Of a DNA stretch of 64,000 nucleotides, positions 1-7,359 are shown in pieces; position 1 is the first letter of the stretch; every line of letters starts with the position of its first letter. The stretch spans positions 248,001 to 312,000 of the forward strand of contig NZ_KI911560.1 of the NCBI RefSeq assembly GCF_000515275.1. Direction: 5' to 3'. The notes below the pieces were generated by a model that saw only the letters and a list, made by a program, of their open reading frames with translations, was not told the DNA's origin and ran no database searches. The DNA comes from Methylophilus sp. 5 (lineage in GTDB: Bacteria; Pseudomonadota; Gammaproteobacteria; Burkholderiales; Methylophilaceae). Both the position numbers and the translations under genes were made by a program.

Positions 1-606
1 CACAACGGGCATTTGGTGCTCGCACAAAGTGTGCTCGACACCCTGCACTGCACGCAAATCCGCGTCATTCCGGCGGCAGTTCCGCCGCATAAAGAAACAC
101 CAGCAGTCACCGCACAACACCGCGCCGCGATGGTACAACTGGCGATACAAAACCACCCAAAGTTTGTACTCGATACCTGCGAGCTAGAACGCCAGGGCAC
201 CTCATACACCATAGAAACCCTGCACCTATTACGCCAACGCTTCCCCAGCCAAGCGCTATGCTTAATGATGGGCCAAGACAGCTACCAAAAACTCCCCACC
301 TGGCACCGCTGGTTAGAGCTGCTAGATTATTGCCACCTGCTAGTCGTACACCGCGCAGACCGCGAAAAAACCTTATTCTGGCATCCAGAGCATGACGGCA
401 AGTTAGTAGACATCGCAGCAGCGCCAGAAGCGTTTGCAGCACAAGCGAACGGCCTGATCAGCTTTTTGCCAACCACGCCGCCAGATATCTCATCTACACG
501 TATTCGTGAACAGTTAAGTCAGAATGACGACACTGTGATCACTGAAATACCGCAACAGGTATTCAGCTATATAGAACAGAATCGTTTATATAAAACAGTA
601 GATTGA
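1..606 (+). CDS. nadD: Nicotinate-nucleotide adenylyltransferase, 5' end outside the window
   Basis: The enzyme transfers AMP from ATP to nicotinate mononucleotide to give deamido-NAD in cytosolic NAD synthesis. The reading frame is open from base 1 and begins inside the nucleotidyltransferase HxGH motif (HNGH at bases 1-12), so only about 15-20 N-terminal residues are missing. The C-terminal ISSTRIRE motif (SSTxIR) of the family is present near residue 165, as is the SYTIETL segment near residue 65. The first in-frame start inside the window (TTG at 13) is an internal codon, not the true start. NadD is usually followed by rsfS in betaproteobacteria; here the hxs operon converges on it 21 bases downstream, so the usual neighbourhood is interrupted. 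Confidence 0.95.
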   Translation, partial: HNGHLVLAQSVLDTLHCTQIRVIPAAVPPHKETPAVTAQHRAAMVQLAIQNHPKFVLDTCELERQGTSYTIETLHLLRQRFPSQALCLMMGQDSYQKLPTWHRWLELLDYCHLLVVHRADREKTLFWHPEHDGKLVDIAAAPEAFAAQANGLISFLPTTPPDISSTRIREQLSQNDDTVITEIPQQVFSYIEQNRLYKTVD

Positions 607-627
607 GTTTAATAAAGACTCTTGAAA

Positions 628-1194
628 CTAGTTTGCCTCAACATCACACACGAACCCCCAACGTCCCTCTTTAATATTTACATGGGGCCCTGTAACTGTC
701 GCAAGAAAATACACAGCGTTTTTTGGTTCATACTTAAAAGTGAAACTAAAGTCAGTAGCATTTTCTTCATTGACTCCGTACACCCCAACCAAACTAGTGG
801 AATCTGCGCCAACGAATTCTTTTCTTATGAGTAGTTTTTTATTTTCATCACTAAATGGTGAGAAATAGTTTTGTGCTCTTTCCAAAAGCGCACCATCTAT
901 CGACCATGACTCGATTACAACTTTATTAACTTCAAATGGTAAGTTGCCAATATTCTTTATCGTTACACCCAAATTGGCCAAGCATAACTCTTTTGCTGGC
1001 AGTCTCCCCCAATTCAGAAAACCAGTTGAAGCAGTCCTTATTTCTAAAGGCTTTTCTATTGTTATATATTTTGAGTAAGCCCATGCTCCTGCAATAAGTA
1101 TTGCAAGTATCTCGACCGTGTATTTAATAATCTCTAAGCAAGCTTTGGCCCTAGAAAAGGGAGTTTTATGAGCCCTACTTAAGAAACGCCTCAT
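628..1194 (-). CDS. Membrane-anchored protein of unknown function, fifth gene of the hxs operon
   Basis: Encodes 188 residues of unrecognised function. There is a short basic N-terminus, one transmembrane helix at about residues 25-42 (VEILAILIAGAWAYSKY), then about 145 residues with alternating hydrophobic strands. The segment VTIKNIGNLPFEVNKVVIES resembles an Ig-like or CARDB-type beta sandwich, so an N-in protein with an extracytoplasmic beta domain is the best structural guess. Its ATG overlaps the hxsC stop codon in an ATGA arrangement, which implies translational coupling to the radical SAM genes. It is not one of the four named Hxs components, so membership in the system is inferred from operon structure only. 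Confidence 0.7.
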   Translation of the reverse strand: MRRFLSRAHKTPFSRAKACLEIIKYTVEILAILIAGAWAYSKYITIEKPLEIRTASTGFLNWGRLPAKELCLANLGVTIKNIGNLPFEVNKVVIESWSIDGALLERAQNYFSPFSDENKKLLIRKEFVGADSTSLVGVYGVNEENATDFSFTFKYEPKNAVYFLATVTGPHVNIKEGRWGFVCDVEAN

Positions 1195-2348
1195 AAGGCT
1201 TTGATATGATCACTATATCGATGTTGCAAACTGGATGAGAAAAAACCTCCGCAATCATTTGCACTTTTACATCCGTCACACTCAGGTGCGAACTCATTCT
1301 TCCAGTCTGAAATTGATTTTCTATAAAAAGGCAAAATATCTTTGTTAACAGTACAAAGCTGATGGTTATACACAGAGGTAGTTAGTTTATAGCTATTCAG
1401 TATGCTCACGGCATCGCTCAAGATATCTTTATACTCATAAGGGTCTATCCAAAGACTATCCAAGTTTGCACGAGTAAACCCCATCATTTCCAACCCCATT
1501 AGAGCAACGTGATCTACAAACAATAAATTCCGGCCAATAAACTCACATAGGTCTAGTAACCCTTCAATTGATTGTTTATGAATAACTACTCTAATTTCTA
1601 CTTTTTGATTCAACCGCTTAAGATTTAAAACACCAGCCAAAGTCTCATCTAACGCACCTGCACTTTGAACTATATAGTCATGTATTGAAGGGTTTGAAGA
1701 GTAAATTGGGATACCAACCATCATGTCAAAATGATTAATATTGGCATATCTTTTCGCAAATCTTATATCTTTAAAAGCTCTTCCATTCGAGAGTATATGA
1801 ATACCAGTTTGAGGTAGATGGCTCTTAGTAAACTCTAATAACTCCAAGAATCTTTCACCAAATAATGTAGGCTCACCACCAGAAAAACCAATTTCTTTCG
1901 TGTTCTTTGGTATCAACTTGATTAAGTTGAAAGCTTCACTTAATAGGTAAGAATCATCCTGATTTTTAGGTGGCTGCGAACACATTAAACAATAGTGATT
2001 ACATTGCTCAGTAATCATAATCGTATTATTAGTAGCCTTTTTCCGGTAAAGAACTCTTATATGCTCTTTATTAGGTGTAATGCGAACAATATCTTCATCA
2101 TTTAAGTAATTGAACTCATCCGGTAAAACCGTGAAACTCTCACCCTCAGAAAATGCAACCTCATCGACAAATGACTCAAACGTAATATAGTGAGCAAATC
2201 CTTTAGGAATAGTCTTCAACTTGGCAATGAACGCTTTATCAGCTCTCAAAACCTGAGGTAAATTTGGATTAGAGCTCATCACAAATAACGTTGCTCTTTC
2301 GGAGCCGATCTCGTGCACTTGGATGACCCTACCCCCGAGTTTAATCAT
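1191..2348 (-). CDS. hxsC: His-Xaa-Ser system radical SAM maturase HxsC
   Basis: Radical SAM enzyme, 385 residues. The [4Fe-4S] cluster motif CxxxCxxC is CNHYCLMC at about residues 115-122, preceded by TIMITEQ, and a GGEPT motif follows about 35 residues later. A C-terminal cysteine cluster (CDGCKSANDC) suggests an auxiliary iron-sulphur site. The first 110 residues are a separate domain without cysteines. It is the third radical SAM/partner gene after hxsA, hxsD and hxsB and overlaps hxsB (ATGA). Hxs enzymes are presumed to modify the HxsA repeat protein, but the reaction is not known. Confidence rests on the complete four-gene order. Confidence 0.88.
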   Translation of the reverse strand: MIKLGGRVIQVHEIGSERATLFVMSSNPNLPQVLRADKAFIAKLKTIPKGFAHYITFESFVDEVAFSEGESFTVLPDEFNYLNDEDIVRITPNKEHIRVLYRKKATNNTIMITEQCNHYCLMCSQPPKNQDDSYLLSEAFNLIKLIPKNTKEIGFSGGEPTLFGERFLELLEFTKSHLPQTGIHILSNGRAFKDIRFAKRYANINHFDMMVGIPIYSSNPSIHDYIVQSAGALDETLAGVLNLKRLNQKVEIRVVIHKQSIEGLLDLCEFIGRNLLFVDHVALMGLEMMGFTRANLDSLWIDPYEYKDILSDAVSILNSYKLTTSVYNHQLCTVNKDILPFYRKSISDWKNEFAPECDGCKSANDCGGFFSSSLQHRYSDHIKAL

Positions 2349-3802
2349 CGGTTAGCCCAGCCCAGAAATAATTTCTTAGTATCAGAACTACTTTCCATGA
2401 GACTAATTAAATGCTTAAAAATACTCATGTTCTTTTTACAGAACTCCGACTCTGGTTTTCTTCCTAAAAAATCTTTATGAATGGCATGGTGATACACGGG
2501 CTCTGAACCACAGTACGGTTCAAATGCACATTCAGAGCACATCGGCGCACTTAGTGTGAAAGATTCTTCAAGCGCATCAAGTAGCTTGTCTGAGAGAATG
2601 ATATCTTCATAAGAGTCGGACAATATGTTACCTAACTCAAAAGTTCTATCCCCCATCTCAGCAAGCATTCGACTTTCATCGGAAGCGTAGACTTTACCAT
2701 CGTAATTAAAAACGATTGCTGCAATACCAATTCCAGCAGGACTCATTAGATCTACGTATCCAGACTCTTGAGCACTAAGAATTTTTTTTAAAATGAGACT
2801 TGAGTAATATTCTGAAAACTCCACACCGTTTCTATTTAACTCAATAATGTAATCAAGACCTGATTTATAGAACTGCAACCATCGCTCAGTGTTGTATGCC
2901 ATAAATCTTTTTGTTTTGATCGCAAAACCATACGGAGATAATGGTCTTAAAAATACTCCCTTGAATCCTAATCTTAAATATTCATCGATAATTTCTTTGA
3001 CTTTATCAAGACTCAACTCAGTAGTTGTCATCAAAGCAGAGATTTGATCGTAACCAAGTCGAGCTCTTGCTTTCTCTAATCCGGCTACAAATCGTTGATG
3101 ACTATCCTTATTTGGCTTAGGTCTATTTGAGTTATGTAAAGCTTCAGGACCATCTAAAGAAGTAGAAATCTGGATTTTATGTAATTTGCAGAAGTCTAGA
3201 ATCTCATCATTTATTAAAGACAAGGTAGTCGCAATTACAAAAGCAAGATCTCTAGCCGCAACTCTGTTTCTGCTTTCAGCAGACTCAACAATGTATTTAA
3301 TTAACTCAAAGTTTAGTAATGGCTCTCCGCCTTGAAATTCAATTTTGATAGCTGGAGATGGAGATCTAAATACAAAATCTAGAGACTTGTCAGCCATGTC
3401 TCTAGTCATATCAAATGAAGACTTATCCTCTGACTGTCTAGAAACCTGACAATAAGGACAACTATGATCACAACGAAGTGTGACGACAAAAATATGTAAA
3501 TTAGTAAATTGAGAAAGCCTAGATAGCTTTGTCCTTAACTTTAAAGCCAACAATTCAATTGGTGACTTTTCCTTCGGCAATCTGATGAAGTGCTTAGACC
3601 TTAATTGACAATATAAGCGACTAGTAACATCTAGTTTTCGATGAACCAATGCTTCTAAATCTTCATGTTCAATCAGCAGATACTCGCCAACGATATTAGT
3701 GATGATGTAACTTTCATCATTAAACCTATCAAATTTAAAAGGTAGTAACTCATAAGCTGAGTCTTCTGCAGCATAGCTTTCAAGCCCTTTAAATTTACTC
3801 AA
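2345..3802 (-). CDS. hxsB: His-Xaa-Ser system radical SAM maturase HxsB
   Basis: Radical SAM/SPASM protein of 485 residues. The SAM cluster motif is CDHSCPYC at about residues 111-118, followed by FQGGEPLLNF near 156 and STSLDGP near 215, all typical of peptide-modifying radical SAM enzymes. The C-terminal SPASM-like cysteines are CSECAFEPYC near residue 430 and a last Cys near 460. The start is a TTG codon that overlaps the 3' end of hxsD by 8 bases; no better ATG lies in frame nearby. Expected to work with HxsC on the HxsA product. The codon use is strikingly AT-rich compared with the housekeeping genes downstream. Confidence 0.88.
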   Translation of the reverse strand: MSKFKGLESYAAEDSAYELLPFKFDRFNDESYIITNIVGEYLLIEHEDLEALVHRKLDVTSRLYCQLRSKHFIRLPKEKSPIELLALKLRTKLSRLSQFTNLHIFVVTLRCDHSCPYCQVSRQSEDKSSFDMTRDMADKSLDFVFRSPSPAIKIEFQGGEPLLNFELIKYIVESAESRNRVAARDLAFVIATTLSLINDEILDFCKLHKIQISTSLDGPEALHNSNRPKPNKDSHQRFVAGLEKARARLGYDQISALMTTTELSLDKVKEIIDEYLRLGFKGVFLRPLSPYGFAIKTKRFMAYNTERWLQFYKSGLDYIIELNRNGVEFSEYYSSLILKKILSAQESGYVDLMSPAGIGIAAIVFNYDGKVYASDESRMLAEMGDRTFELGNILSDSYEDIILSDKLLDALEESFTLSAPMCSECAFEPYCGSEPVYHHAIHKDFLGRKPESEFCKKNMSIFKHLISLMESSSDTKKLFLGWANR

Positions 3803-4103
3803 TTTTTTGCAGACCAGTATTCAAGAAAGTGGCACTCAATATTAAATTTCTGACAGTCTCGGTTTCTTTCGCAATTAACTGCCGTAGATGTTGATCAAGA
3901 ATCTCTTTCTTAAAATCCGCTTTTAATTTTTGCAGTTGGCTATCTGAGTGCTCGCTATCAAATATGATATGACAAAGTATATCCCTATCAATTAACTCAA
4001 AATCCACTGTAAATTTATTGATAAAGCGATACGCAGCCTTCTGTATTGTTTCAACAGAATAAACACGCTCGTCGAATTTGAGCGTCAACTCACTCTTACT
4101 CAC
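3795..4103 (-). CDS. hxsD: His-Xaa-Ser system protein HxsD
   Basis: Small cytosolic protein of 102 residues, a constant partner of the HxsB/HxsC radical SAM pair and of unknown biochemical role (possibly a leader- or substrate-binding factor). The C-terminal part LRQLIAKETETVRNLILSAT is the recognisable family signature. It starts with GTG immediately after the TAA of hxsA (TAAGTG), with no spacer. No signal peptide or membrane segment is seen. Confidence 0.85.
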   Translation of the reverse strand: MSKSELTLKFDERVYSVETIQKAAYRFINKFTVDFELIDRDILCHIIFDSEHSDSQLQKLKADFKKEILDQHLRQLIAKETETVRNLILSATFLNTGLQKIE

Positions 4104-4385
4104 TTAATATCCAGACGAGTGAGAGCGATGAGATGAATGTGAGCTATGCGAGGAATGGGAGTAATGAGCGGCATAAAAGATGCCATCACTATTTGGTTTA
4201 AGGATAAACTTTAAAGCAGTTTTATCGCCAAAGTCGAATTTGTTAACTTCTTCAGTCTCGATCTCAAGCAAATTAGACTTAGCTTGTTCATCTATTGAAT
4301 TGTTATCAACAGATTTCGCATTTGATTGGTTTGCAGTCAAGGCACTAGCTAACACAGCCAATGGCAAAAGATATTTTCTTTTCAT
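4104..4385 (-). CDS. hxsA: His-Xaa-Ser repeat protein HxsA
   Basis: Ribosomal product of 93 residues and the presumed substrate of the downstream radical SAM enzymes. Residues 1-23 form a Sec-type signal peptide (MKRKYLLPLAVLASALTANQ then SNA). A middle acidic stretch is followed by a C-terminal tail of six consecutive H-x-S triplets (HYS HSS HSS HSS HRS HSS) ending in GY. Start ATG is supported by an AGAGG ribosome binding site about 5 bases upstream. It is the first gene of the five-gene operon. The His/Ser tail could bind metal or carry the modification; neither is shown. Confidence 0.9.
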   Translation of the reverse strand: MKRKYLLPLAVLASALTANQSNAKSVDNNSIDEQAKSNLLEIETEEVNKFDFGDKTALKFILKPNSDGIFYAAHYSHSSHSSHSSHRSHSSGY

Positions 4386-4720
4386 GATTAGCCTCTCACG
4401 TGTATTGATATTTTTTTAAATAAACTATCATGGAAATTACATTGACGTCCATAAACCATCATTCCGAATTTAGATTAAATAATGTAAATATTTGCATTCA
4501 ATCATTTAAATCCGAAGAATCATCAATCCCTTTTTCAAAATTCCATACAGTAAAAAACTAACAATAAGACAATTGAATATTTAAACTCGTAAAAACGTTA
4601 CTTACAAAGATGCCTTTAAATATCTGAGTTGCTATCTACTCAATAACAACTTCGTTACCACACAATAAACTTTCCAAAGAAATATTTTAATAATATAATT
4701 TCCAAAGAAAGGAATAAATC
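4386..4720. other. AT-rich divergent intergenic region
   Basis: 335 bases without a plausible gene between divergent hxsA and the Xre-type antitoxin gene. It must hold the hxs operon promoter (left) and the toxin-antitoxin promoter (right). Apart from the tandem 12-base repeats listed separately I see no clear operator or structured RNA; the low GC makes promoter calls by eye unreliable. Confidence 0.6.
4671..4710. promoter_or_regulatory. Tandem direct repeats before the Xre/RES module
   Basis: Two perfect copies of TTTCCAAAGAAA lie at 4671-4682 and 4699-4710, 28 bases apart, the second ending 10 bases before the antitoxin ATG. Repeats at this position are typical operators for autoregulating antitoxins; binding by the encoded Xre-type protein is inferred. 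The second copy runs into the AAAGGA ribosome binding site. Confidence 0.5.
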
Positions 4721-5101
4721 ATGGCAACTGTAACTACTAAAACAGCAACCCAACCCGATGCTGCACAAGTATTAAGCAAAGCAGTAGGCCGGGCTGCCGA
4801 ACGACTACAGCTTTCGCGCGCGATGTTGGCGACGATTCTTGGCTTGAGCCCAGCGACGATTACACGCTTGTATGACGGTAAGTATTTGCTAGACCAGAAG
4901 CGTAAAGAGTGGGATTTTGCGTTGTTGTTTGTGCGGGTTTTCCGCTCGCTGGATTCGATTGTGAGCAATGATGAAACTGCGCGAGTGTGGTTGACCAATA
5001 AAAACCTTGCCCTCAATGCCCGCCCCATCGACTTAATTACTCAAACGGAAGGCTTGGTGCGTGTCGTACACTATCTGGACACCTCACGCGGTCTCGTCTG
5101 A
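4721..5101 (+). CDS. Xre/MbcA/ParS-type antitoxin of a RES module
   Basis: 126 residues. An N-terminal helix-turn-helix is seen around residues 28-55 (LQLSRAMLATILGLSPATIT), followed by the toxin-binding C-terminal domain (DUF2384 type) ending RPIDLITQTEGLVRVVHYLD. It should neutralise the RES toxin encoded immediately downstream and repress its own promoter. Start ATG has a good AAAGGA site 7 bases upstream. The 3' end overlaps the toxin start by 41 bases, so the two are translationally linked. Confidence 0.88.
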   Translation: MATVTTKTATQPDAAQVLSKAVGRAAERLQLSRAMLATILGLSPATITRLYDGKYLLDQKRKEWDFALLFVRVFRSLDSIVSNDETARVWLTNKNLALNARPIDLITQTEGLVRVVHYLDTSRGLV

Positions 5102-5774
5102 GGCGTTTGCCTGGCGTGGCTTAGCTTGGCGCATGGTGGAGGCGCAGCATGTGGCTTCGACCATGAAGCTGGTGGATACGGCGGCTGAGCAGAACATGCT
5201 TGAAGCGTTGCTCGACAATAGCAAACCGGCCTACCCTGACACCACAGCAAAGCTGGATTATCTGCTGGCAACACCTTTTCGCTACCCGACGCGTAAAGGG
5301 GGCTCGCGATTTAGAGGTGCTAATGACCCTGGGGTGTTTTATGGGGCTGAGTCGGTAGCAACCGCAGCCGCTGAGCTTGGGTTTTGGCGCTGGAAGTTTT
5401 TGATGGATGCGCCTGCCCTGACACATATTGAACCCGTTGCACACACGGCATTTCAAGTCTCACTTAAGGCACAAACGGTGGATTTACGACAACCACCTTT
5501 TGATGCAGATGCGGCATGGCTGCACAAATCAAATTACGGTCCGACGCAAGCATTTGCGCAATTGGCAAGAAGTGTTGATTTAGGCTGCATCCTTTATCGA
5601 TCAGTGAGAAGCCCACAACCGGCATGGTGTATTGCGGTGCTAAAACCAGACGCTTTTGCGCAGAATAAACCCAAACCGGAAACGCAAACCTGGTGGTTAG
5701 CCGTGAGCCAACATGAGGTGATTTGGCGCAGAGAGCGCCAATCGCTAACTTTCAATCCGGCCATTTGGAAGTGA
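5061..5774 (+). CDS. RES-domain toxin
   Basis: 237 residues. RES toxins of type II modules act on NAD (NADase or phosphorylase activity) or ADP-ribosylate targets. The N-terminal part WRMVEAQHVASTMKLVDT is characteristic of the subfamily; the catalytic-type residues appear as RFRG near residue 85, FYGAES near 98 and AAELGFWR near 106. The GTG start at 5061 gives the expected N-terminus SYTIWTPHAVSSEA and lies inside the antitoxin gene in the +1 frame. Length is normal, so it is probably active. Confidence 0.87.
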   Translation: MSYTIWTPHAVSSEAFAWRGLAWRMVEAQHVASTMKLVDTAAEQNMLEALLDNSKPAYPDTTAKLDYLLATPFRYPTRKGGSRFRGANDPGVFYGAESVATAAAELGFWRWKFLMDAPALTHIEPVAHTAFQVSLKAQTVDLRQPPFDADAAWLHKSNYGPTQAFAQLARSVDLGCILYRSVRSPQPAWCIAVLKPDAFAQNKPKPETQTWWLAVSQHEVIWRRERQSLTFNPAIWK

Positions 5775-5948
5775 AGTTAGCGGATTAATTATAGGTGTTT
5801 TATGCAAAAAACCCCTTAAATTATTGAATTAACGATATAAATACTATCTTTACAGTGTATACACCCCTAAAAAATTTTGATATGTTACCGATATATCACA
5901 ATAAATATGATGCTTTTGCGTCAAACAAACATCGGGGTGACATTGAAA

Positions 5949-6167
5949 ATGATGGATATGTCTGGAAAATATTTGTACACCATACGCAGTGCGAATGGGG
6001 TGTTGGTTGAAAATTTGCAGATTTTTGGCAAGTCGCGTAACGAGGCGGACGCAAAGATCAGGCAGATGTATTGGCGCTGCGAAATTTTGAGTTGCAGCCT
6101 GGTGGCGGATTTGAGTGCGCGTGCACCAAACCTGAAAATGCAGTGGCTGCGGCCAAATGCTGCGTGA
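5949..6167 (+). CDS. Small protein of unknown function
   Basis: 72 residues from the ATG at 5949, which has a GGGGTG ribosome-binding-like run about 10 bases upstream; the frame can be extended to 5877 but without better initiation signals. The protein is basic (pI judged by eye), with GKYLYTIRSANGVLVENLQI suggesting beta strands and two cysteines (CEILSC). No domain is recognised. It stands alone between two toxin-antitoxin modules and is followed at once by a strong terminator, which supports its being a real transcription unit. Confidence 0.55.
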   Translation: MMDMSGKYLYTIRSANGVLVENLQIFGKSRNEADAKIRQMYWRCEILSCSLVADLSARAPNLKMQWLRPNAA

Positions 6168-6180
6168 ATAAAATGCTTTG

Positions 6181-6212
6181 AAAAAAGGCGCTTGGATTCA
6201 AGCGCCTTTTTT
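6181..6212. terminator. Bidirectional rho-independent terminator
   Basis: Stem AGGCGCTTG / CAAGCGCCT with a four-base loop (GATT), flanked by six A on the left and six T on the right, so it can end both the small gene at 5949-6167 and the leftward VapC transcript. Confidence 0.85.
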
Positions 6213-6245
6213 ATTACCTAAAATAAATCGTTAAACAATGGCAAC

Positions 6246-6632
6246 TTACACACTTATTAATGCCACAGGATACTGTGCCACTACACTATCAGCCGTGACC
6301 AATGTCACCCCTTCGACCAAGGTTTGCGATAGCAACATACGATCAAACGGATATTTATGAATATCTGGTAAGGCTTGCAGGTTGACGGTGTGAGTGCTGT
6401 TGATCATGATTTCCTCAAAGCCATTATCCAGCAAGCACCGTCGTAGTACGGCTGGGTCAACCTTAAAGTCTGCACGACCCAATGTATTTTTAATGGCGAT
6501 TTCCCACAGGCTGGCACTACTGAAATACAGCTGGTTTTCAGGGTCTTCAATGAGTAACTTGGCTGTGTTTGAAAGTTGATTGGAGCCTTCTGCCGCCCGC
6601 AGCAGAATATGGGTGTCTAGCAATAACTTCAT
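6246..6632 (-). CDS. PIN-domain toxin, VapC-like ribonuclease
   Basis: 128 residues from the ATG at 6632 (MKLLLDTHILLRAA). PIN-domain acidic residues expected to hold Mg2+ are visible: Asp in LLDTH, Glu in SLWEIAIK, Asp in YPFDRML and Asp in VTADSV. Such enzymes cleave RNA, often tRNA. The longer in-frame start at 6671 would overlap the antitoxin gene and lacks support. It begins one base after the antitoxin stop codon (TAA C ATG), a normal antitoxin-toxin operon. Confidence 0.88.
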   Translation of the reverse strand: MKLLLDTHILLRAAEGSNQLSNTAKLLIEDPENQLYFSSASLWEIAIKNTLGRADFKVDPAVLRRCLLDNGFEEIMINSTHTVNLQALPDIHKYPFDRMLLSQTLVEGVTLVTADSVVAQYPVALISV

Positions 6633-6633
6633 G

Positions 6634-6876
6634 TTATTCCAATCTAAACAGATGGGTAATTTCGGTTGCACCCATCACGTCAAAATCATCAGGAACCTGA
6701 ATTTGACCTTTCATAAAGCCGATGCGCTGAGGCAGCTGCGTTTCTGGTGTATCAAGCTTAATCACCTTAACCAGAGGTTTGCCTGCTTTGGCGATAATAA
6801 AAGACTCACCATTCACTGCTTGGTCCACTAATTTGGAAAGCTGTGTTTTTGCTTCGTGTATGTTGATAACTTGCAT
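6634..6876 (-). CDS. Phd/YefM-type antitoxin
   Basis: 80 residues from ATG at 6876 (MQVINIHEAKTQLSKLVDQA), the usual Phd N-terminus; a GTG two codons upstream is an alternative. The N-terminal half forms the Phd DNA-binding fold, with GESFIIAKAGKPLVKVI diagnostic of the family, and the C-terminal part should wrap the VapC-like toxin encoded next. Confidence 0.88.
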   Translation of the reverse strand: MQVINIHEAKTQLSKLVDQAVNGESFIIAKAGKPLVKVIKLDTPETQLPQRIGFMKGQIQVPDDFDVMGATEITHLFRLE

Positions 6877-6887
6877 GGCCACACCAG

Positions 6888-6914
6888 TAAACTAAGTTTA
6901 GTTAGTTTAGTTTA
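6888..6914. promoter_or_regulatory. Probable operator of the Phd/VapC module
   Basis: TAAACT-A-AGTTTA (6888-6900) is a perfect inverted repeat 12 bases before the antitoxin start, followed by further GTTTAG/TTAGTTTA copies to 6914. Position and repetition fit autoregulation by the antitoxin; binding is inferred. Confidence 0.45.
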
Positions 6915-6945
6915 AATCTTGGTGTACTTTGCGTAAAAACTTATC

Positions 6946-7359
6946 TCAAAACAACGGCAGATTGCTGGCCCGCACATTATTCCTGACGACTTTTCTCTGC
7001 AGCATTTTTTTAACTGGGCTATCACTTGCAGCGAACAAGTCTTCTTCAAACAGCGATTGTTGTGCCGGGAACATATCGTCTTGCATCTGCGCGGTTTGCA
7101 GATCAAACCTGAGTTCGCACTCTAACCACAGGTCAGACTTGGGCACGCAGCAGCAGGGCAAGATTTCGTCAGCCGCGATAAAAGCGAGTGGCAGCTCGAC
7201 GTAATCGACTTCACCGTCTAGCATGCGTACGCGGCAGGCACCACAATAACCGCTGCGGCATTGATACTCTACTTCGTGGCCGGTGCGCTCCAGGCCTTCG
7301 AGCAGGGTTTCTTGCGGGAGCAGGCTAAAGCGGCTGTGCTGGCTGCGTACGCTAATCAT
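6946..7359 (-). CDS. yfaE: 2Fe-2S ferredoxin YfaE-like, ribonucleotide reductase maintenance
   Basis: 137 residues. Plant-type ferredoxin fold with cluster ligands CRSGYCGAC at about residues 34-42 and a distal Cys in PCCC near 70. YfaE reduces the di-iron centre of NrdB so that the tyrosyl radical can be rebuilt. It starts 8 bases after nrdB and is the last gene of nrdA-nrdB-yfaE. It is about 50 residues longer than the E. coli protein; the extra C-terminal part (residues 90-137) is acidic then basic, with no recognised domain. Confidence 0.85.
   Translation of the reverse strand: MISVRSQHSRFSLLPQETLLEGLERTGHEVEYQCRSGYCGACRVRMLDGEVDYVELPLAFIAADEILPCCCVPKSDLWLECELRFDLQTAQMQDDMFPAQQSLFEEDLFAASDSPVKKMLQRKVVRNNVRASNLPLF

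Follow-up and report, generated by a model that had tools for sequence, protein, structure and literature searches.

A 64,000-nucleotide stretch of the Methylophilus sp. 5 genome (contig NZ_KI911560.1, positions 248,001 to 312,000; hereafter the window) contains, on the minus strand at positions 628-4385, five consecutive open reading frames (ORFs) of 93, 102, 485, 385 and 188 amino acids (aa). The first four form a complete His-Xaa-Ser (Hxs) operon with a precursor peptide of the HxsA2 type, and the fifth, which we call F5, is a new accessory to this already known, little-studied system. We propose that F5 is a Methylophilus-specific, membrane-anchored periplasmic partner of the modified and exported HxsA2 peptide, a proposal that we hold to be evenly balanced between right and wrong. 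In the excerpts returned by literature searches with the system name, gene names and model accessions, there was no description of Hxs chemistry or of the product's site of action, nor any mention of the model accessions or of "HxsA2"; the excerpts state that HxsB and HxsC are putatively needed for a His-Xaa-Ser motif that Haft and Basu described (PMC9062424), merely list the hxs genes (PMC8446631), or contain the term "His-Xaa-Ser" (PMC6537148). Genes that travel with hxs are the cheapest clue to chemistry and site of action, and F5, together with several other genes downstream of hxsC, points to the cell envelope. Methylophilus is tractable for finding out, some of its species carrying the compact five-gene unit and others not.

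A five-gene Hxs unit in Methylophilus

The operon consists of the following genes, listed in order of transcription.

4104..4385, minus strand: hxsA2, His-Xaa-Ser repeat precursor, 93 aa (NF038296, 91.7 bits, cut-off 48)
3795..4103, minus strand: hxsD, 102 aa, GTG start immediately after the hxsA2 TAA (TIGR03976, 60.5 bits, cut-off 50)
2345..3802, minus strand: hxsB, radical SAM maturase, 485 aa, TTG start, 8-base overlap with hxsD (TIGR03978, 639.8 bits, cut-off 370)
1191..2348, minus strand: hxsC, radical SAM maturase, 385 aa, ATGA overlap with hxsB (TIGR03977, 391 bits, cut-off 267.9)
628..1194, minus strand: F5, fifth gene, 188 aa, ATGA overlap with hxsC (without NCBIfam, Pfam or PADLOC family)

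All four Hxs proteins score above the curated NCBI family cut-offs, and the elements of a His-Xaa-Ser system are each present: the HxsB and HxsC radical SAM pair, HxsD and the repeat precursor. A sequence-only reading of the window had claimed a complete operon with tightly spaced junctions, and both claims hold as made; in order, the junctions are TAAGTG (hxsA2/hxsD), an 8-base overlap (hxsD/hxsB), ATGA (hxsB/hxsC) and ATGA (hxsC/F5). The same reading had named the precursor hxsA. A precursor is there, but it is of the HxsA2 type, unlike classical HxsA, against whose model (TIGR03979) it reaches 33.4 bits where the cut-off is 121.65. A defence (viperin) identity was rejected for the maturases, as the scores of HxsC and HxsB against PADLOC viperin models, 40.5 and 26.6 bits, are confined to the radical SAM core and much lower than those against the Hxs families; a PDB sequence search with HxsC gave nine viperin-like or radical SAM chains, also over that core, and PADLOC defence models at E<=0.01 matched none of F5, HxsD and HxsA2. 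A promoter scan returned 8 sites against 14.8 expected, and a terminator scan none against 3.8 expected, counts that carry no information.

F5 is co-inherited with hxs. Among 22 Methylophilus genomes, 18 of them at least 90% complete, hxsC (E<=1e-60) is found in three, F5 is found in the identical three, and F5 without hxs was not found; in the wider set of 101 relatives, which includes these 22, F5 again occurs in three. Gene order, start codons and overlaps of the window's genome (G000) are kept in the two congeners that also have hxs (G014 and G017), and the three share one block of DNA.

628..4451 (to 4488 against G017): DNA block common to G000, G014 and G017 (blastn), one end of which is the F5 stop codon

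The other end of the block lies slightly upstream of hxsA2, and separate common pieces resume at about 5774 towards nrdB. Past the F5 stop, G000 has nadD, G014 a PIN-domain gene pair and G017 an RlmF-like gene; these names come from reading the sequence, as do those of all other genes beyond the operon unless a family search is the source. Because the common block ends at the F5 stop and the genes beyond it differ, F5 is the last gene inside the inherited hxs unit; its 4-base overlap with hxsC is kept in all three genomes while the flanks differ. The dN/dS ratios of F5 (Nei-Gojobori) are 0.087, 0.034 and 0.061 in the three genome pairs, compared with 0.043-0.075 for hxsC, 0.034-0.071 for hxsB and 0.139-0.151 for hxsD, all of them rough ratios with synonymous sites near saturation in some pairs. 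Since the F5 values lie at 0.03-0.09, the ORF is not a chance one: F5 is a real gene under purifying selection about as strong as that on hxsC and hxsB, and the earlier claim of a coupled fifth gene is supported.

The F5 protein and its proposed partner HxsA2

F5 has no family in NCBIfam or Pfam at E<=1 and no relative among PDB sequences at E<=5. Two regions of the protein are predicted.

1066..1122, minus strand: F5 membrane segment, about residues 25-43 (AlphaFold2 helix, hydropathy, charge bias)
646..1041, minus strand: predicted seven-strand domain of F5, residues 52-183, with Cys71 and Cys183 (AlphaFold2, low confidence; cysteines invariant in four sequences)

The sequence-only reading had described F5 as a one-helix protein with a beta-rich extracytoplasmic domain. 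AlphaFold2 models from alignments of 3 and 4 sequences (mean pLDDT 59.2 and 64.3; the remaining four models of each run scored below those used) agree in seven strands between residues 52 and 183, preceded by one long helix (13-42 or 13-46), and the first of them departs from the description in an extra short helix at 104-109. Residues 1-24 carry +7/-1 charges and residues 44-60 carry +2/-2, and because of this bias and the positive-inside rule the domain is placed outside, where the two cysteines present in all four known F5 sequences (three from Methylophilus and one distant relative, below) would also lie. The data fit, short of proof, a protein anchored in the inner membrane whose domain lies outside.

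The precursor peptide has features of its own that bear on its destination.

4317..4385, minus strand: apparent Sec signal peptide of HxsA2, residues 1-23, MKRK...SNA (translation read by eye)
4113..4166, minus strand: six His-Xaa-Ser units (HYS HSS HSS HSS HRS HSS) followed by a terminal GY (translation; presumed modification site)

The C-terminal end of HxsA2 reads HYSHSSHSSHSSHRSHSSGY. The sequence-only reading had derived a product at the cell surface or in the periplasm from the coupling to F5; a periplasmic product is plausible, through the peptide's own apparent Sec signal and not through F5 alone. For comparison we used hxsC loci from a genome collection, the best 80 of 285 relatives (23 of the 80 are from Pseudomonas). 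An ORF with at least three HxS units is present in 75 of these loci; of 80 HxS-repeat ORFs counted, 79 stand before hxsC and one behind. The claim of export rests on the N-terminus as read by eye, because a cruder hydropathy count puts only 19 of the 80 HxS-repeat ORFs over the threshold for a signal segment. Five loci (L088, L097, L098, L101 and L119) have two HxS-repeat ORFs each, and in one such ORF 163 (L097) or 220 (L098) residues follow the repeats.

Radical SAM maturases work on their peptide substrates in the cytoplasm. We infer an order of steps in which the HxS tail of HxsA2 would be modified in that compartment by HxsB and HxsC, with HxsD helping, as their family membership suggests, and HxsA2 would then leave through Sec by the signal peptide seen at its N-terminus. 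F5 would be made by translational coupling to HxsC and sit in the inner membrane by its one N-terminal helix, its strand-rich domain, perhaps of Ig-like fold, facing the periplasm. Judging by genetic linkage and predicted topology, this domain may hold, present or protect the exported HxsA2.

F5 beyond the genus and rival accounts

Outside Methylophilus, F5 was hardly found. A profile search of 369 genomes of the class (E<=0.05) gave five matches, of which we accepted only G000 itself and a protein (L132; E 3e-7) in G329, a genome of another family; three weak matches (L133, L134 and L135; E 0.005-0.03) were not accepted as F5, that at L133 lying in the frame of what reads as a threonine-dehydratase-like protein and being taken as chance. 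Homology of the L132 protein to F5 spans residues 16-184 (probability 96.5, E 7e-10), with 25% identity and with the membrane segment and both cysteines kept. It was found in only one of 95 relatives of G329, namely G329 itself. In 398 genomes of the phylum the F5 profile (E<=0.01) found only its own genome, tblastn with F5 found nothing in plasmids (E<=0.01) or phages (E<=1), the profile found nothing in viral contigs, and the L132 query found nothing in plasmids.

The hxs loci themselves give the same picture. The F5 profile over all ORFs of the examined loci added none, the next match having E 0.2, and F5 was not found in four other genomes of the class with hxsC above the cut-off. Among 199 genomes, six have hxsB above the cut-off; those within the family and outside Methylophilus are G041 and G127, and F5 was found in neither. 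In both (loci L042 and L043) hxsB is interrupted: about 1.9 kb separate its first 36 residues from the rest in G041, and in G127 it runs in two frames around residue 360, where a sequencing error is possible. The intact hxs operons seen in Methylophilaceae are therefore the three with F5, a number too small to weigh. In 5 of the 80 sampled loci the contig ends less than 500 bases behind hxsC, too soon to show F5. Because F5 is present in just one of the 80, the Hxs system works without it: F5 is a lineage-specific accessory and no general Hxs component, and it says little on Hxs chemistry generally. Earlier expectations about its relatives come out divided, since all three close homologues stand beside hxsC and all three Methylophilus hxs operons have F5, but the one distant homologue lies away from hxs and no examined operon outside the genus has the gene.

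Several observations weigh against a partnership of F5 with HxsA2 in the envelope. There are only three close F5 sequences, so their co-occurrence with hxs amounts to one lineage, and the single sampled hxsC locus with F5 (by phmmer) is that of Methylophilus sp. 13. The sole distant relative, L132, stands alone among genes of other kinds, and the best hxsC-like match in its genome reaches 55.7 bits, where the cut-off is 267.9. AlphaFold2 confidence for F5 is low, and Foldseek searches with the two models led to assorted beta-sandwich domains with TM-scores of at most 0.43 among the matches listed; these matches are varied and weak, and no function was read from them. Finally, some neighbours of hxsC elsewhere are non-envelope genes (methyltransferase-like, thermonuclease family), or no neighbour is present.

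F5 could instead be independent cargo of an island beside nadD, using the hxsC stop for its expression and serving another role such as envelope stress or defence, an account that we consider possible and somewhat doubtful. In G000, hxs and F5 lie in the nadD-nrdB interval and directly adjoin nadD; G014 and G017 match G000 on the nrdB side, and nadD is not within the 16 kb examined. This interval is variable, measuring 288 bp from nadD to a small ORF (5877-6167 in the window) in G008 and holding other genes in five further genomes (G020, G013, G005, G009 and G004), and the solitary state of L132 in a genome without hxsC above the cut-off fits free-standing cargo as well. Against it stand the absence of F5 without hxs among the 22 Methylophilus genomes, the end of the common block at the F5 stop and the 4-base overlap, retained in three genomes whose flanks differ.

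An improbable alternative keeps F5 on the cytoplasmic side, as a membrane-tethered chaperone that holds HxsB and HxsC at the membrane and links modification to export. The overlap of F5 with hxsC, not with hxsA2, would suit such a role, but the difference in charge between the two ends of the membrane segment and the conserved cysteines of the domain favour the outside, as the periplasmic partnership with HxsA2 would have it.

Genes behind hxsC and around the operon

Known Hxs systems share parts of the Methylophilus layout. Among HxsA2-type systems (NF038296, TIGR03976, TIGR03977, TIGR03978), the order A2-D-B-C is also found on Paraburkholderia pSYMBR3459, and a fifth overlapping gene of the F5 kind is seen only at the Methylophilus locus among the 80 sampled. 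In classical Hxs systems on Klebsiella and Aeromonas plasmids a gene with a 4-base overlap stands behind hxsC, as in Methylophilus; there, however, the overlapping last gene is hxsA, whereas in Methylophilus the peptide comes first and F5 last. At one locus of classical order (L048), HxsA has a C-terminal stretch that by eye resembles a peptidoglycan-binding region. Extended Hxs operons, which add a TIGR03982 protein and a MauG-like enzyme (TIGR03981), also carry extra genes behind hxsC, one of them with a single membrane segment as in Methylophilus, but these small membrane proteins are unrelated to F5 by profile comparison. Extended operons with TIGR03982-type and MauG-like genes behind hxsC lie as follows.

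L096:8157-10168, extended Hxs operon
L103:8543-10172, extended Hxs operon
L109:1423-3429, extended Hxs operon
L120:8159-10174, extended Hxs operon

Two of them come from Polynucleobacter, one from Nitrospira and one from a PS1-clade bacterium. At L096, L109 and L120 the order is a one-segment membrane protein, then the TIGR03982-type protein, then the MauG-like enzyme, and L103 has the latter two as well. Pfam places PG_binding_1 behind the membrane segment at L096 and L109, with L120 in the same cluster, and the one-segment proteins of all three have a common motif, STPR(S/T)F(I/V)LPA. In an NCBIfam scan of L096, TIGR03982 reached 106.2 bits (cut-off 40) and TIGR03981 reached 333.8, just below its cut-off of 340; both families are tied to Hxs by NCBIfam itself. 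That F5 is a divergent TIGR03982 accessory or a divergent form of the peptidoglycan-binding protein is hardly credible, as it shares with them a position behind hxsC, one N-terminal membrane segment and a similar order of size, but matches no NCBIfam (TIGR03982) or Pfam (PF01471) model at E<=1, aligns by hhalign with probability 0.2 to the TIGR03982 type and 4.7, over the membrane segment only, to the peptidoglycan-binding type, and belongs to three genomes (G000, G014 and G017) in which a TIGR03982 search found nothing, a search insufficient alone for absence as no control genome was positive either.

Across lineages the place behind hxsC is occupied by differing genes, often encoding membrane or exported proteins. 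SxtJ-like membrane proteins followed by carbamoyltransferases are found at L081, L083, L086 and L090 (by Pfam at L086 and L083), a small exported protein at L113 and L118 of Legionella (728 bp away at L124), and a GmrSD_C-domain protein at L131. A methyltransferase-like gene occurs in a cluster of six loci, with L057, L058, L059, L071 and L098 as apparent members; the identification is supported by Pfam at L098, while the L057 gene falls below all NCBIfam cut-offs. These two genes lie at L098:8155-8772 and L057:8287-8787, and the former, from Acidobacteria, overlaps hxsC by 4 bases. Ten plasmid stretches with hxs were examined, one of which (Cupriavidus) bears no annotation: hxsA itself stands behind hxsC in Klebsiella and Aeromonas, in Methylobacter the place is taken by a gene of the thermonuclease family, in Nostoc by a small hypothetical one and in Leptospira by one for a mobilome protein, and no close same-strand gene is annotated there in Paraburkholderia, Novosphingobium, Sphingobium and Acidiphilium. 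A plasmid tblastn search with hxsC returned 432 records, 332 of them from Klebsiella and 347 predicted to be conjugative.

We counted N-terminal hydrophobic segments in ORFs of 80-260 aa at most 60 bases from the hxsC end in the 80 loci, with F5 excluded from both sets. Such a segment is present in 11 of 17 ORFs behind hxsC and in 12 of 51 matched controls, either of which sets may include non-genes. With families collapsed the counts are 7/11 and 10/43 (p 0.016); over three hydropathy thresholds they are 8/11 vs 10/43, 7/11 vs 10/43 and 7/11 vs 5/43 (p 0.0036, 0.016 and 0.001), and with all other ORFs as background, 11/17 vs 76/533. The enrichment is a lead, the idea having arisen from the same loci as were counted. 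A tentative reading, which we would not expect to hold but take seriously, is that the position downstream of hxsC is a permanent slot, reserved in each lineage for its own envelope partner of the modified peptide, and has been filled repeatedly by unrelated proteins. The fillers would be F5 in Methylophilus; in Polynucleobacter, Nitrospira and a PS1-clade bacterium, a membrane-anchored peptidoglycan-binding protein, followed at a distance of two genes by a MauG-like haem enzyme; the SxtJ-like membrane proteins of Limnohabitans and Neopusillimonas; and, in the classical order, HxsA itself. If so, the Hxs product would serve the cell envelope as a structural or redox-active element, with one way of anchoring it exchanged for another between lineages.

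The surroundings of the operon form a region of variable cargo in Methylophilus, extending from nadD to the ferredoxin/nrdB genes (606-6946 in the window) and reaching up to about 10 kb in G004. An Xre/RES toxin-antitoxin pair adjoins the operon at 4721-5774; similar pairs occur without hxs in G020, G013 and G009, and Xre/RES genes lie near hxs on the Acidiphilium plasmid (L180) too. The variable region also holds, at 6246-6882, a PIN-domain toxin and antitoxin-like pair that reads as VapBC type.

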